64,000 nt of DNA, taken from assembly GCF_003473485.1 (NCBI RefSeq), contig NC_053045.1, forward strand, positions 38,786,494 to 38,850,493, read 5' to 3'. The notes below the pieces were generated by a model. That model worked only from the letters and a program-made list of their open reading frames with translations. It was not told the DNA's origin and made no database searches. The stretch is from Medicago truncatula (Eukaryota; Streptophyta; Magnoliopsida; Fabales; Fabaceae). The translations under genes and the position numbers were made by a program. Below are positions 12,871-64,000 of the stretch, piece after piece; positions within the stretch are counted from its first letter, which is position 1, and each line of letters starts with the position of its first letter.

Positions 12871-13116
12871 TTCCGGAATATTAATTTCGGATTTATTCGT
12901 GGATTTTGGCACTTCATCACCCTGATGGATGAAGATGTCAGTGATGAATAGATGAATCCGGATTATATAATCCAAACATTTTATATCATTTCCGGATTAT
13001 ATAATCCGAATAGTGTAAATCACCCTATTGAAAGTCAACAAAAGGGGGTGGTGAACGACGGTTCCGGATTATATAATCCGGAAAGTGATAAACATGTCCG
13101 GATTATATAAACCGGA
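12871..13116. repeat. Cluster of CCGGATTATATAATCCGG palindromes
   Basis: Five copies of a ~18-20-bp palindrome or close variant occur here, at about 12871, 12958, 12990, 13062 and 13097. Two variants lie at the other end of the element, at about 15715 and 15748. The best copy is ttccggattatataatccgg. All are within the Mutator-like element, mainly subterminal. Confidence 0.8.
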
Positions 13117-18353: not shown

Positions 18354-18483
18354 TACTCATCCATCCCAAAATGTAAGCAAAAATGGATCAACATAAGTTG
18401 ATGTATCTAATGTACAAATTTTGAACAAAATACATTAATTTTTGTTGACCAATTTTTGCTTACATTTTAGAACGGATGGAGTA
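18354..18483. mobile_element. Stowaway-type MITE
   Basis: Inverted ends of about 30 bp (ctcatccatcccaaaatgta and its inverse ending gaacggatggag) are bordered by TA. The body is ~130 bp and non-coding. The CTCCxTCC-type tip and TA target fit Stowaway MITEs. Confidence 0.75.
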
Positions 18484-38827: not shown

Positions 38828-38903
38828 ACACCCTCCGATCACTATTATAAGCAAAAATTCATTTTTATTCATTTTTTAGGTTCATTCATTAAATGTTATA
38901 TGT

Positions 38904-38938
<35 letters not shown>

Positions 38939-38990
38939 CATACAACATTTAATAAATGAACCTAAAAAATATAAATTTTTGCTGATATTG
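38828..38990. mobile_element. Fold-back MITE with central TA run
   Basis: The arms share ttttttaggttcatt-attaaatgttgtatgt in inverse orientation, around a TA run at about 38912-38936. It is missing from the related segment at 30600-30910, so it inserted after that duplication. Confidence 0.7.
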
Positions 38991-43675: not shown

Positions 43676-44944
43676 CAAAATCGTGACCGGCGCACAAACT
43701 AGAACATCTTAGTCCGGCAAGCCTATTGACGACACTTGACAAACTATAATTTAAACAATTTTTAAATTGACCTTCACTTTAAAATAATATCCACTGAAAT
43801 TTCGACACAATATCCTCTGTATTTTCAATATTTTCCAAGGTATGAATCATGTCTATAAACTTGTATTATCAGTGAGAATCTCAAAGAGAAATAACTAGAT
43901 GTTTGCACAACTCAAAATAAAACATTCTAGACTTTTAAATAATTGCATATACATCAATTGACGCTAAAATATACGATGTCAACCAAGAGGGTCTACCAAA
44001 AGTGACAATGCGAAAACTTTGAATTTGCTATCAAGTTACTATACCATATAAGAGAATTGTTTCAAGTGGTTCATTGAAAGAGTACGGGCATTGCAGTTTG
44101 ATCTAACTCTGCTATTTTGCAGAGGTTTCGAGTTGGACACTTTAGATAAGGTAACAAAAGCGTAAGGGGGTATTAAACTATATTTTTGCAAGAAACAAGT
44201 TGAGTGATTATATAGTGATATAATTCTTAATGTGGTGTAGAAATTATATATGGACATTTGCGGCAACAAATATCAATATTACAAAGGGATGATTTTAGTA
44301 GACAAATTTTTGAGCACAATGGTAAAGAAATCTTTGATAAGATCCAATGAACAAGTTTTGATTCAAGAACTCAAAAGAGTGGGAAAATTTCACTAAAATA
44401 CACATAGTGTAATTTCCATCAATATTTTACTTGTTTATTCATAATTTTTGCCCCCATTATAAAAGACATAGGCTACAATGGAGGAAAGATTACGAGCATA
44501 GCATAGCATGAATGCATGATTAATGAATAACTCTGGCTACTAAACAAAGAAAAGGTTATAACTTAATTGGCTATTTAAAGTGGGCAACTAAGTCGATGTT
44601 TGAGATGGTTACACATTCATTTGCAGCTCACTAAACATTTTTATCTCACCATTGAAGTGTTAGTTCGGTCTCCATTATGCTTCTATATTGCGTCGCTTCT
44701 TCTCTTGCATAAACTATTGAAATCAAACCCATTTTCCACCACGAAAGAGGCCGAATTTGATCTTGAGTTTAAATGATGAAATGTAGAATTTTTTTTAAAC
44801 TTTCCAACGAATTAAAGATCACGTTAAACAGACATCCAGAGCTCAAGATCAAGATATAGCATAAACAAGACAGAGGTAACATCAAATTTCTACTTTAGAA
44901 GACGATGTTATTTACCGATGGTGTTTTAAACCATTTTCAGGTTT

Positions 44945-45119
44945 GACTTCAGAGTGATCACTAAGAGCATAAAATTGGTTCCTTTTTAGAGTGTCTTTGC
45001 GGATATTTATGACACTGTGTCATATATTTCATGACTTCAGAGTGATCACTAAGAGCATAAATATCGGTTCCTTTTTAGAGTGTCTTTGCGGATATTTATG
45101 ACACTGTGTCATATATTTC
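44945..45119. repeat. Tandem duplication, 88-bp unit
   Basis: The unit from gacttcagagtgatcactaa to gtcatatatttca is present twice (44945-45032, 45033-45119) with only a few differences. It is a recent local duplication in non-coding DNA. Confidence 0.9.
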
Positions 45120-45538
45120 ACTTTGTCCAACAAGTGGGGTGGTAAGAAAATTTAGAAAATATAGTTTAGTGATTTAAATAATTGGGAAGTTTAAAATAAT
45201 ATAATGTATTCAGTGGGACTCATTTATACCACACATATGGAAGGCATGGATGTGGGTGCTCTAAGAAGATCACACTTTCCCTCACACCTAAAGTAGCTTA
45301 GGTAAGAATTTGTTTAGATTGATGTAATAAGCTGGAATTATATAGAATTGAGTGGTATAGAGTGACATTCACAGTCAAAGTTTACAAAATGCGAGTGAAA
45401 TGGAGTTGGAGAAAATCATTGGAGCACTTATACATGAGTTTACATGGTACAAGAAATTACTATTATCATCACTCACTTCCTCATCACATTTAAACATGGT
45501 AAGGATATATAAAAATTCAAATTACTTGACAAAGGAAC

Positions 45539-50556: not shown

Positions 50557-51695
50557 ATGGCTGCCAATAATCAATTATATCATAGCATTTCATTGGCATT
50601 GTTTTTCTGCTTGGGATTGTTTGCTATTCAAGTCACTTCTCGTACTCTCCAAGATGACTCCATCATATATGAGAAGCATGAACAATGGATGGTTCACTAT
50701 GGCAAAGTCTATAAGGATCTTCAAGAAAGAGAGAATCGTTTAAAGATATTCAAAGAAAACGTAAATTACATTGAAGCTTCCAACAATGCTGGCAATAACA
50801 AGTTATACAAATTAGGCATTAATCAATTTGCAGACCTCACCAACGAGGAGTTCATAGCATCTAGAAACAAATTCAAAGGTCATATGTGCTCCTCAATCAC
50901 AAAGACAAGTACTTTTAAGTATGAAAATGCAAGTGTTCCATCAACAGTGGATTGGAGAAAGAAAGGAGCAGTAACACCAGTGAAGAACCAAGGTCAATGT
51001 GGTAAGTGTCTATCTATTATGTAATGCATTCAATTACAAACTATGTGATCAAATATTGAATTGTCATTAAATTCTAGTTAATTTTAATTTACCTTTTTGT
51101 AGGATGTTGTTGGGCATTTTCTGCTGTTGCGGCAACCGAAGGAATCCATAAGTTGAGTACTGGGAAGTTGGTCTCTTTATCGGAACAAGAACTTGTTGAT
51201 TGTGACACAAAAGGTGTAGACCAAGGTTGTGAGGGTGGTCTTATGGATGATGCTTTCAAATTCATCATTCAAAATCATGGACTCAACACTGAAGCTCAAT
51301 ACCCCTATCAAGGTGTTGACGGAACTTGCAGTGCAAACAAAGCATCCATCCATGCAGTTACTATTACCGGGTATGAAGATGTCCCTGCCAACAATGAGCA
51401 GGCACTGCAGAAAGCTGTGGCAAATCAACCAATTTCCGTAGCTATTGATGCTAGTGGGTCTGACTTTCAGTTTTACAAAAGTGGTGTCTTTACTGGTTCA
51501 TGTGGAACTGAGTTGGACCATGGTGTCACAGCCGTAGGTTATGGTGTCGGTAATGATGGAACCAAGTATTGGTTGGTTAAGAATTCATGGGGAACTGATT
51601 GGGGTGAAGAAGGATACATTAAGATGCAAAGGGGAGTCGATGCAGCCGAAGGACTTTGTGGCATTGCAATGGAAGCATCTTACCCTACTGCTTAA
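50557..51695 (+). CDS. SAG12-like papain-family cysteine protease, copy 1 (2 exons, 345 aa)
   Basis: The exons are 50557-51001 and 51103-51695, with a 101-bp intron in phase 1. The product has a signal peptide (about residues 1-28, [20 protein letters not shown]), then an I29 inhibitor propeptide with the ERFNIN-type pattern ([20 protein letters not shown]) and [11 protein letters not shown]. The mature protease starts near [20 protein letters not shown]. The catalytic Cys is in QCGCCWAFS, His in [11 protein letters not shown] and Asn in VKNSWG; the oxyanion Gln is in KNQGQCG. A GCEGG motif replaces the usual GCNGG. No granulin tail is present. SAG12-type proteases act in the vacuole or apoplast, often in senescing tissue or ageing nodules, which is inferred here. 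The ATG at 50557 is chosen because the frame upstream begins without an ATG. The intron separates QCG from CCWAF. Confidence 0.95.
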
Positions 51696-52969
51696 CTTCC
51701 AAACTTAATGCGTATGTTACCTAAACTTTGTAATTCGATCAAAGCTGTGATTGATTGTGCATTTATCATCTATTAGCTACATTCATCATGGTTTCTATGA
51801 CTATTTGTGTATAGTGTATATATACTTGTGCATTTATCAATACAAAGAAGATATTAAGAGTAAATCCTATTGTTCGTTCTTCTCCTTCTTTAGTTTTATT
51901 TTATTCGCTTTCATAATTTTCGAAATCCCGTAAATCTTATTTTTTACTTGCAAAGGGATTTCAGGTGTTTATTGTTTCTCTCTTCCAACTTACAGCTTCT
52001 CTTTAAAGTAACATTGGTTTAGGTTTTTGAAATATAATGTAAGTCAAACAAGACGAATGTTGAAGTTCAAAATTCAAAATTTTAAACACGCAGCAGTTTA
52101 ATTTAACACTTCTTTCACAAATTGCTTTGGTAAGATTATTAGATATTTCCAAGTTATTTCAATGAGAAAATTGAAACAAACTTTTTTTTTTTTTTTTAAA
52201 AAAAAAGGTATAGAAACAAAGTTATTTTTCATAAGAGGATATGTTCAAACAGCTATATAAACTTGATTAAATTCTTTCAAACGTCACCTTAATGAAGACT
52301 CCAGTATCAATTCACGGACAATAGTGACTCCCAAACTCATGATAGTTCTGGCCTATCTAATTGGTAGACTGGAGCTTCTACATTCCCCCAGTTAATGCAA
52401 CGATGGATGAAAAATTCCATGCACTTTGACATCAAAGTTTCAAACAGACTTGGCATTTAACACCCAGATGAATGCTCGCCCCAAACTAACATGTATTGCT
52501 TCTCCATTTTCATGACTTGTGTGACCCACTAAACAAGCTTCAAACATACATTTAATCAACTTTCTGTTTGGAAAGTAAATGAGAACATCAATCTGCACTT
52601 GTAATAAAAATTACGGACATCTCTTATTGCTGTGGTATAGATTAATCTTGAGTTCAATGTTGCATGATAATATAGTAAGAGTAAAATCCTTGATCCCTTG
52701 CCTCTATCTCTTGAAAGAAGCCCAAACAGAAAATGCGAGTTAGTAAAAAATGACAACTCAAAAATCTGTGAACATAATTTATTACCTCATTTCTAATATG
52801 TCATCAAACAACATTCCTCATTCGTAAAATAAATCTTAGTACTACAAAGTGGTCATACAAAACTTCAATACAAGCACTCAACCATTTTAAAACTCACTCA
52901 CGATAGCTGCTACTTTGAGCGATTACTGAAAGGAAATCAACTCAAGAAAGGCAATAATTGGTTCATGTT
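51696..52969. other. Intergenic between protease copy 1 and KARI
   Basis: The first part is the likely 3' UTR of the protease gene and the last ~150 bp the 3' UTR of the reductoisomerase gene. No other feature is supported. Confidence 0.5.
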
Positions 52970-61263: not shown

Positions 61264-61573
61264 TCACAATAAACTTAATTAATATCTATTTGTTTATATA
61301 ACATCACTTAGTTACGTGAAGCAAAAAGCACACACGTTAGTTAACGTGAAACAAACTGAGTTTTGATTGTGACATACTTTCTTTGTAAGAAAAATGCGTT
61401 CACTTGACAAAGAATTTGGCCGTTGAATAGAAAATTCTCACATTCTCACAGTTGGTTACGGTAGATTCCTACATTGGGTCTCATTCAGAAAATTCTCAGA
61501 GTTACGTTGAATTGAAAATTGTTTTTAGCACAAATTATTAACATAATAATACTTAATTCATCATTAACTTGCC

Positions 61574-61581
61574 TATAAATA
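61574..61581 (+). promoter_or_regulatory. TATA box of the second protease gene
   Basis: TATAAATA about 60 bp before the ATG at 61640. Confidence 0.6.
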
Positions 61582-61639
61582 CCAAAAAAAGTATGGGTAA
61601 AAGCACAGCACTTCTTTAATCCTTCACTAATTAATTACC

Positions 61640-62778
61640 ATGACTGCCAATAATCAATTATATCATAGCATTTCATTGTCATTGCTTTTATGTTTGGGAT
61701 TGTTTGCTATTCAAGTCACTTCTCGTACTCTCCAAGATGACTCCATCATATATGAGAAGCATGAACAATGGATGGTTCACTATGGCAAAGTCTATAAGGA
61801 TCTTCAAGAAAGAGAGAATCGTTTAAAGATATTCAAAGAAAACGTAAATTACATTGAAGCTTCCAACAATGCTGGCAATAACAAGTTATACAAATTAGGC
61901 ATTAATCAATTTGCAGACATCACCAACGAGGAGTTCATAGCATCTAGAAACAAATTCAAAGGTCATATGTGCTCCTCAATCACAAAGACAAGTACTTTTA
62001 AGTATGAAAATGCAAGTGTTCCATCAACAGTGGATTGGAGAAAGAAAGGAGCAGTAACACCAGTGAAGAACCAAGGTCAATGTGGTAAGTGTCTATCTAT
62101 TATGTAATGCATTCAATTACAAACTATGTGATCAAATATTGAATTGTCATTAAACTCTAGTTAATTTTAATTTACCTTTTTGTAGGATGTTGTTGGGCAT
62201 TTTCTGCTGTTGCGGCAACCGAAGGAATCCATAAGTTGAGTACTGGGAAGTTGGTCTCTTTATCGGAACAAGAACTTGTTGATTGTGACACAAAAGGTGT
62301 AGACCAAGGTTGTGAGGGTGGTCTTATGGATGATGCTTTCAAATTCATCATTCAAAATCATGGACTCCACACTGAAGCTCAATACCCCTATCAAGGTGTT
62401 GACGGAACTTGCAGTGCAAATGAAACTTCAACCCCTGCTGCTACTATTGCTGGATATGAAGATGTCCCGGCAAACAATGAGAATGCACTGCAAAAAGCAG
62501 TGGCTAATCAACCAATTTCCGTAGCCATTGATGCGAGTGGCTCCGATTTCCAATTTTACAAAAGTGGTGTCTTCACTGGTTCATGTGGTACTCAGTTGGA
62601 TCATGGTGTTACTGCTGTGGGTTATGGCATTAGTAATGATGGAACCAAGTATTGGTTGGTTAAGAATTCATGGGGAAATGATTGGGGTGAAGAAGGATAC
62701 ATTAGGATGCAAAGGAGCGTAGATGCTGCTCAAGGACTTTGTGGCATTGCAATGATGGCATCTTATCCCACTGCTTGA
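61640..62778 (+). CDS. SAG12-like papain-family cysteine protease, copy 2 (2 exons, 345 aa)
   Basis: The exons are 61640-62084 and 62186-62778 with a 101-bp intron, the same structure as the copy at 50557. The signal peptide ([20 protein letters not shown]), I29 propeptide and catalytic Cys (QCGCCWAFS), His ([11 protein letters not shown]) and Asn (VKNSWG) are all present, so it should be active. Exon 1 after the signal peptide, the intron and the first part of exon 2 are almost identical to copy 1, while the last ~360 bases differ at about one base in seven. Its promoter is also distinct, so regulation may differ. The two genes are direct-repeat paralogues 11 kb apart with the reductoisomerase gene between them. 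Confidence 0.95.
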
Positions 62779-63154
62779 AAGACAAACTTGATACTTATAT
62801 TCCCCAAACTATGTAAATTATGCTAAATTACGTAAATTGTGATTATGCTTGTGTATTTATTAATACAATTAAGGAATGAAAAGTAAATACTGTTGTTAAC
62901 TCTTCTTTTTCTTTATTATGTTATTTTATTTTCTTTATATTTTTCTGGTATATCTCACTACTTAAAAACAAAAATATAGAGACAAATTTTGAGAGGGAAA
63001 CGTGAAATCTCTCTATTTTTATCACTAAATTTTGCTACAAAAAATAAGTGTGGTATTTCATTTTTCGTTACTAATTTTCGTCGCTAATTTTATTTTTTTC
63101 TAGTAGTTGTTTTTATTGATACTTGATACAAATGCATTTGTAGATAGATTTGTT
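62779..63154. other. 3' UTR and intergenic
   Basis: The likely 3' UTR of protease copy 2, then A/T-rich DNA with nothing recognisable. Confidence 0.5.
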
Positions 63155-63269
63155 GATAACATACATAATTTTTTTTTTTTTTTTTTGCGGTGGCTGGGGT
63201 TTGAACCGTGGACTTTGCATATATCATGCATTGTTCTACCAACTGAGTTATGCTCACGAGGACAACATA
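63155..63269 (-). mobile_element. Very short tRNA-like retroposon, long A-tail
   Basis: On the minus strand the insert starts gtgagcataactcagttggt (A-box), has a tgcat...atgca hairpin and a B-box-like cggttcaaaccc, then a run of about 18 A bases. Flanks gataacata (63155-63163) and gacaacata (63261-63269) match at 8 of 9 bases and are a plausible target-site duplication. Confidence 0.75.
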
Positions 63270-63822
63270 TTTATTTATTTTGATTGAATGTTGGTTTAAA
63301 TGGTAAGAAGTTTGATGGATTTGATTTTTTTTAACCCTCTGAATCTCATGAGAAAAGATCATGTTAATCTTGTGGTCAGTTGAAAGGTAAGTAAAGTCCG
63401 ACAAAAATTGTTCCATTTAGGAATCAAATTCAAGTTTTCCTGAACAATTTATTCTTGTTAAAGCTCATTAATCATTTGATCTCAATTGTTTGATTCTGGA
63501 TTTTATATTTGACTCTTGCATTTAAAACAATTAAATATAAATGGAAGAACACACCTTGTTTGTTTCATAGATTCTTCTACGAAGATTAATTATCTTGATG
63601 AAAATTTTCATTTAATTAGATTATTTGACTTTTGTAAATTTTAATGATAAAACTATGATTTATATCAACAAAAAAAAATTATAAACTACGCATGTGTAAG
63701 AAAGATCTAGAAGAAATGGTAACAGACGAGTAACAAACTCGTGAAAAAGCGCGCGAGTACGGGTATAAAACTTGACCCTTCCCTCCTTACATTTTCAGTT
63801 TGAAATTGAAATTGAAATTTCA

Positions 63823-64000
63823 ATGGCTGAAGAATTCTCAACGGGAATGGCAATGGTACCACACGCAATCTCCTCGAAGAAGCGTTCAGCAAAGAACGAA
63901 AAGCTCTGCCTCGAAGATTACATTCATCTTCTTCACTCTCGCAACACCAATGATCTCACTATGAATCAACTCAATCAGGTTCCATTCCATTCCATTCCTT
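63823..64000 (+). CDS. First exon of an unidentified gene, cut by the window end
   Basis: The ATG at 63823 opens a 52-codon exon ending at 63978 with a cag|gttcca donor. It encodes MAEEFSTGMAMVPHAISSKK, then LCLEDYIHLLHSRNTNDLTM and NQLNQ. The acidic-to-basic N-terminus and LEDYIHLLHS...LTMNQLNQ motif recall a plant family of unknown function, but I cannot name it with confidence. The rest lies beyond 64000. Confidence 0.6.
   Translation, partial: MAEEFSTGMAMVPHAISSKKRSAKNEKLCLEDYIHLLHSRNTNDLTMNQLNQVPFHSIP

Follow-up and report, generated by a model that had tools for sequence, protein, structure and literature searches.

Probable relay of two recent interlocus conversions among three papain-family cysteine protease genes of Medicago truncatula

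Three cysteine protease genes on one chromosome of Medicago truncatula, here called A, B and C, share a long stretch of near-identical sequence, and each has kept its own flanks. Two recent ectopic (interlocus) conversions within this small protease family, forming a relay in which A was copied into C and C in turn into B, are to our judgment the probable history of the three genes. The tracts themselves and their edges are plain in the alignments, as set out below.

The window, by which we mean the whole analysed stretch of 64,000 nucleotides (C4:38786494-38850493), holds genes A and B, which share one orientation and are separated by 11 kb. Gene C lies outside it at C4:38675552-38676851 on the minus strand, inverted and about 160 kb from A. 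The genome searched comprises 430 Mb in 42 contigs. A DNA search of all of it with gene A as query returned 47 matches, six of which span all or most of the gene: A itself, B, C, D (contig C5), E and F (both contig C4). The match of a seventh paralogue, G (contig C2), to gene A is split in two pieces. After A, B and C, the next full-length relatives are at most 87% identical. A search of the genome for the papain domain gave at least 103 exon-level matches; four of these on C4 near 60.08 Mb have equally scoring counterparts on the small contig C35 and, judged by scores alone, look like doubled assembly sequence. The main alignment consists of the seven paralogues A to G, with four more distant loci added in the flank comparison only. 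The features below are in window coordinates.

50557..51695, plus strand: gene A, coding sequence of a papain-family cysteine protease, probably SAG12-like, 345 aa, no internal stop; matches Medtr4g079770 (CP5)
50557-51001 and 51103-51695, plus strand: exons of gene A, with the intron at 51002-51102
61640..62778, plus strand: gene B, paralogous coding sequence, 345 aa, no internal stop; matches Medtr4g079800 (CP6)
61640-62084 and 62186-62778, plus strand: exons of gene B
50611..51337, plus strand: stretch of A common to B and C, 3/727 differences from B; probable donor sequence
50611..51727, plus strand: stretch of A common to C, 2/1,117 differences, extending 32 bases past the stop codon
61694..62420, plus strand: converted part of B common to A, from the alignment and the permutation test
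61640..62420, plus strand: part of B common to C, 3/781 differences; presumed extent of the segment copied from C into B
62421..62778, plus strand: 3' part of B with its own older sequence (catalytic His and Asn), 53/359 differences both from A and from C (51338-51696 of A)
61462..64000, plus strand: segment around B homologous to the segment around C, in discontinuous blocks, with homology reaching about 1.5 kb past the window end

The window also holds an ~89-base tandem copy, 97.8% identical, at 44944-45120, and four self-complementary stretches of 116-160 bases (38846-38987, 18354-18483, 12957-13116 and 367-482) that are perhaps small inverted-repeat elements.

The tract common to A and B

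Base-by-base alignment finds only three differences between A and B within 50611-51337, at 50836, 51072 and 51285 (3 of 727 positions). To the left, five mismatches fall in the 54 coding bases (50560, 50596, 50602, 50607 and 50610), and to the right there are 53 in 359 positions (51338-51696). The stop codon of A ends at 51695, and the coding sequences compared carry one base past it in A, without effect on the counts that matter. The right edge is exact, with 51338 opening a dense run of differences, and the number of mismatches per 30-bp window goes from 4 to 0 or 1 over 24 windows and then to 10. A sequence-only reading of the window, made by eye, had put about three differences in 50612-51337, about five just before it and about fifty in the ~360 bases after it, with an abrupt change of identity at both edges. 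Its counts agree with ours; its right edge at 51337 is exact, its left edge is one base off (the last difference is at 50610, so that the tract begins at 50611), and the alignment and the 30-bp profile exclude even divergence along the gene.

That reading also proposed a conversion test of the GENECONV type. Our permutation test in that style, over 387 polymorphic sites, recovered 50613-51337 as the best A/B fragment, scoring 212.4 where the highest of 10,000 shuffles scored 85.1 (p = 1e-4, the floor of the test). When all 21 pairs of the seven paralogues were tested with 2,000 shuffles, A/B, A/C and B/C were at the floor (p = 0.0005). None of the other 18 pairs reached it (p of at least 0.019, the value for both B/E and D/G), and conversion as a general trait of the seven genes is not supported. 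The A/B near-identity is beyond chance. It extends to sites that do not change the protein: dS is 0.008 over codons 19-227 compared with 0.58 over codons 228-345, and the intron segment differs at 1 of 102 sites. Because silent and intron sites are depleted of differences too, selection on the protein alone is rejected as its cause.

Another close pair of proteases in the same orientation lies at 39.14 and 39.15 Mb on C4 (L017 and L018), with identities of 92% (749 bases) and 83% (1,041 bases). Inspected by eye in 50-column windows, this pair has conserved exons and divergent introns, with no comparable sharp step.

The third copy and the flanks

Gene C follows A beyond the A/B tract. From 51338 to 51727, where B diverges, A and C do not differ at all, and directly after 51727 C is B-like again. 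In the 54 coding bases before 50611 it is B and C that are identical (0/54), with A differing at five sites, and B/C mismatches reappear immediately ahead of the start codon. The best B/C fragment runs from 50560 to 51337 in A coordinates; it scores 231.1, and the highest score among 10,000 shuffles was 95.4. For A and C, the exact-run test inside the gene gave p = 0.057 and its mismatch-tolerant form p = 0.0004; the exact-run test is weak here because nearly the whole tested stretch is tract. Over 50611-51337, each copy has private sites: one in A (51072), two in B (50836 and 51285) and one in C (50663). In sum, the locus of C is of B/C type but houses a 1.1-kb gene body of A type, and B holds a shorter A-type piece.

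The surrounding sequence groups the genes in another way. BLAST blocks between the B and C loci cover 61462-62915, 63698-64770 and 65139-65506 (window coordinates), with ~80% identity farther out. Flank identity is 87.9% (5') and 79.6% (3') for B/C, 72.7% and 65.3% for A/C, and 81.8-86.1% for A against D, E and F. In the flank tree B and C are joined (99/97) and a grouping of A with C is rejected (p = 3.9e-8). In the tree of the middle, tract part, by contrast, A, B and C form one group (100/99), and a topology placing A with D, E and F to the exclusion of B and C is rejected (p = 0.0046), though one that keeps D, E and F together is not (p = 0.47). The tree of the 3' part is poorly supported, with B weakly placed with F (52/78). 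Judged by its flanks, then, B is the sister of C, and A belongs with D, E and F. The transfer was non-reciprocal, C being B-like and A being D/E/F-like on both sides. A recent duplication of A into B or C is rejected, since in their flanks B and C match one another and not A, and crossing-over is not favoured because each copy has one flank type on both sides.

These comparisons also show how far a two-gene account reaches. The sequence-only reading saw a recent conversion between A and B over the propeptide, the catalytic Cys and the intron, with older divergence kept in the His/Asn half. The recent conversion is upheld by the dS contrast, the intron and the different phylogeny of the flanks; the two-gene mosaic is incomplete, in that C shares A's tract to 32 bases past the stop codon; and the stretch that it named in A is, by distance, on the donor side, the converted sequence being that in B and C.

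In the tree of the 54 bases at the coding start, F stands beside B and C (91/91) and a group of A, D, E and F is rejected (p = 0.022). Elsewhere F (C4:25.10 Mb) is nearer to A, D and E, and its grouping with B and C at the coding start is possibly another small exchange. Exchanges among D, E and F themselves are possible as well.

Direction and order of transfer

The mean distance to D, E and F, taken relative to the mean distance among those three genes, is 0.89-1.06 for native A and 1.46-2.17 for the native stretches of B and C (1.46 for the 3' part of B). For the common middle it is 0.89-0.91 in A, B and C, with upper 95% limits of 1.01-1.04, and the middle is therefore A-type by distance in all three genes. 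Exon 2 alone has upper limits of 1.28-1.39, too loose to decide. A was probably the donor and C and B the recipients, a direction that the distances favour and on which the middle tree leaves the nesting undecided. Reversing it, so that the middle would be native to B and C and copied into A, with the 3' part of A later copied into C, likewise takes two events with one visible left edge, and the middle tree alone does not reject a D+E+F group apart from A, B and C. The distances, however, disfavour this reversal, the middle values lying well below those of native B and C, and we hold it to be very unlikely.

The right edges differ, and so there were at least two events. Given that B and C do not differ at any of the 54 coding bases left of the edge and that their mismatches are back before the start codon, two events suffice. 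In the relay, sequence of A would first have replaced that of the distant, inverted gene C between codon 19 and a point 32 bases beyond the stop codon; C would have kept its own promoter, its initial 54 coding bases and the flank downstream. Once converted, C would then have replaced the 5' two thirds of the sister gene B, starting near the start codon and ending at codon 227, while B retained its own promoter and the part that encodes His and Asn. The edge on the left, at 50611, would have been made in the A to C step and inherited by B from C, and the piece received by B probably began to the left of 50611, near the B start codon. Physically, each step would have been break repair in the recipient with the paralogue as template.

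We infer that the order was A to C to B, rather than from A to each gene separately, from the 54 bases at the coding start. The probability of finding no B/C difference there runs from 0.0001 to 0.11 as the assumed native divergence goes from 16% to 4%, which supports the relay without proving it. In the separate-transfer history, the main rival, A was copied into C over 50611-51727 and independently into B over 50611-51337, with C not an intermediate. The donor type is the same in both recipients, A and B are close neighbours in the same orientation, and the changes within the tract are all private to one copy, so that those sites give no order. At 51072, D, E and F share the base of B and C, and the change therefore lies in A; within the tract no derived change is common to B and C alone. 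On the other hand, the two left edges would have to coincide within the short interval that follows 50610, and the identity of B and C to the left of it would call for chance or a third event. We regard separate transfer as a serious but unlikely alternative.

Some other A-like copy, lost or unassembled, might have been the donor for one or both recipients. The family has many members, with at least 103 papain-domain matches, but the genome search with gene A found no full-length relative closer than the three genes themselves, and such a donor seems quite improbable. As for an artefact of assembly or consensus, with reads of one copy built into part of another, the copies are more than 99.5% identical inside the tract, the junctions are known from assembled sequence alone, and the recurrence of C4 matches on C35 indicates that doubled sequence does occur. 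Against it, every copy carries private changes in the tract, which would be unexpected of pasted sequence, and promoter sites of both A and B agree with positions published for an earlier assembly, although these sites do not address the junctions. We think an artefact highly improbable, the least likely of these accounts. The relay from A through C to B remains our preferred reading. At a rate of 1.08e-8 per site per year, the conversions date to roughly 83 kyr ago for A/C (10-299), 191 kyr for A/B (39-558) and 178 kyr for B/C (37-520), figures that are rough only.

Gene identities, proteins and known systems

All seven paralogous coding sequences, A to G, are free of internal stops, and the intron in these protease genes is in phase 1. 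Pfam places I29 at residues 41-99 and Peptidase_C1 at residues 127-344 of gene A; both domains are complete and above the cut-off in A and in B. The CGCCWAF motif, which we take to mark the SAG12-like subgroup at the catalytic Cys, occurs in 7 of 7 translations. From papain-family knowledge and the alignments, the catalytic Cys is predicted to be residue 151, inside the common part, with His 288 and Asn 309 in the part that B kept. The proteins of A and C differ at five residues, all in the first 36, and their predicted mature enzymes (from about residue 127) are therefore the same, under different promoters. Between A and B there are 21 residue differences, 15 of which lie beyond residue 227, and the predicted B protein is a chimera with an A-type propeptide and first lobe and its own second lobe.

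Published plus-strand CCAAT positions are -1580 for Medtr4g079770 and -1991, -1066 and -381 for Medtr4g079800. On the same strand, gene A has CCAAT at exactly -1580 and also at -770 (window 49787), a site absent from the published table, and gene B has it at -2027, -1102 and -417, each 36 bases off a published Medtr4g079800 site; the sites of gene C are at -1984 and -1433. The 36-base offset in B and the additional site in A may reflect a change in the annotated start, or an insertion or deletion that distinguishes the assemblies. One paper names Medtr4g079770 as CP5 and Medtr4g079800 as CP6 (PMC9554486). Since the published promoter sites fit A and B, we identify A, by these coordinates, as CP5 and B as CP6, both symbiosis-related proteases of M. 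truncatula. D would be CP2 and G would be CP1, going by chromosome only. We take C to be CP4 (Medtr4g079470). A and C have one identical coding stretch of more than 900 bases, and, with C probably CP4, a joint signal for CP4 and CP5, such as one study reports (PMC9554486), is what genes of this kind would be expected to produce. A review has MtCP6 promoting nodule senescence (PMC8227080), and CP6 and CP2 serve as nodule senescence markers (PMC12610396). Medtr4g079770 is labelled 'SAG family' in one paper and Medtr4g079800 is called SAG39 in another.

For studies of nodule senescence, these marker genes are hard to tell apart, and this is a practical warning. Of the 21-mers of B that start in the first 680 coding bases, 618 of 680 also occur in A or C, compared with 34 of 339 in the rest (this assembly). 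An RNAi trigger, a probe, a short-read count or a guide placed in the common part would not discriminate among A, B and C. B can be distinguished by the part after codon 227 or by its untranslated ends, and A can be told from C mainly by the untranslated ends and the first 18 codons. The locus also offers a clean natural case in which to ask whether conversion moves stepwise from copy to copy.

More speculatively, the gene bodies may behave as a common cassette, with conversion spreading one enzyme over loci with diverged promoters by way of an inverted intermediate ~160 kb away. This we consider a doubtful proposition. If it were true, the same mature protease would come to stand under several symbiosis-related promoters, and, with divergence between copies as low as 0.2-0.4% in the tract, the species might still be polymorphic for converted and unconverted alleles.

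Three papers link the CP1-CP6 set, in which A and B correspond to CP5 and CP6 by promoter coordinates, to nodule senescence and arbuscule degeneration (PMC8227080, PMC9554486, PMC12610396). Among the matches listed in open-licence literature, we found no report of conversion among CP genes. The mechanism is, on good support, ordinary and well-known conversion between paralogues; what is new is the three-gene history and the marker ambiguity that comes with it. A survey of interlocus conversion in rice gives lengths of 4-1237 nucleotides with a mean of 130 and events that become rarer with distance (PMC2277409). The Medicago case resembles it in being non-reciprocal, in involving similar genes on one chromosome and in having lengths within that range. 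It differs in that its tracts, of 727-781 and 1,117 bases, are far above the rice mean, and in that the A/C pair is inverted and ~160 kb apart. The recursive ectopic conversion described for Aspergillus is likewise a case of repeated conversion within one set of paralogues, and there it goes with gene splitting and elevated mutation, whereas the reading frames of the Medicago genes are all open (PMC12844118).
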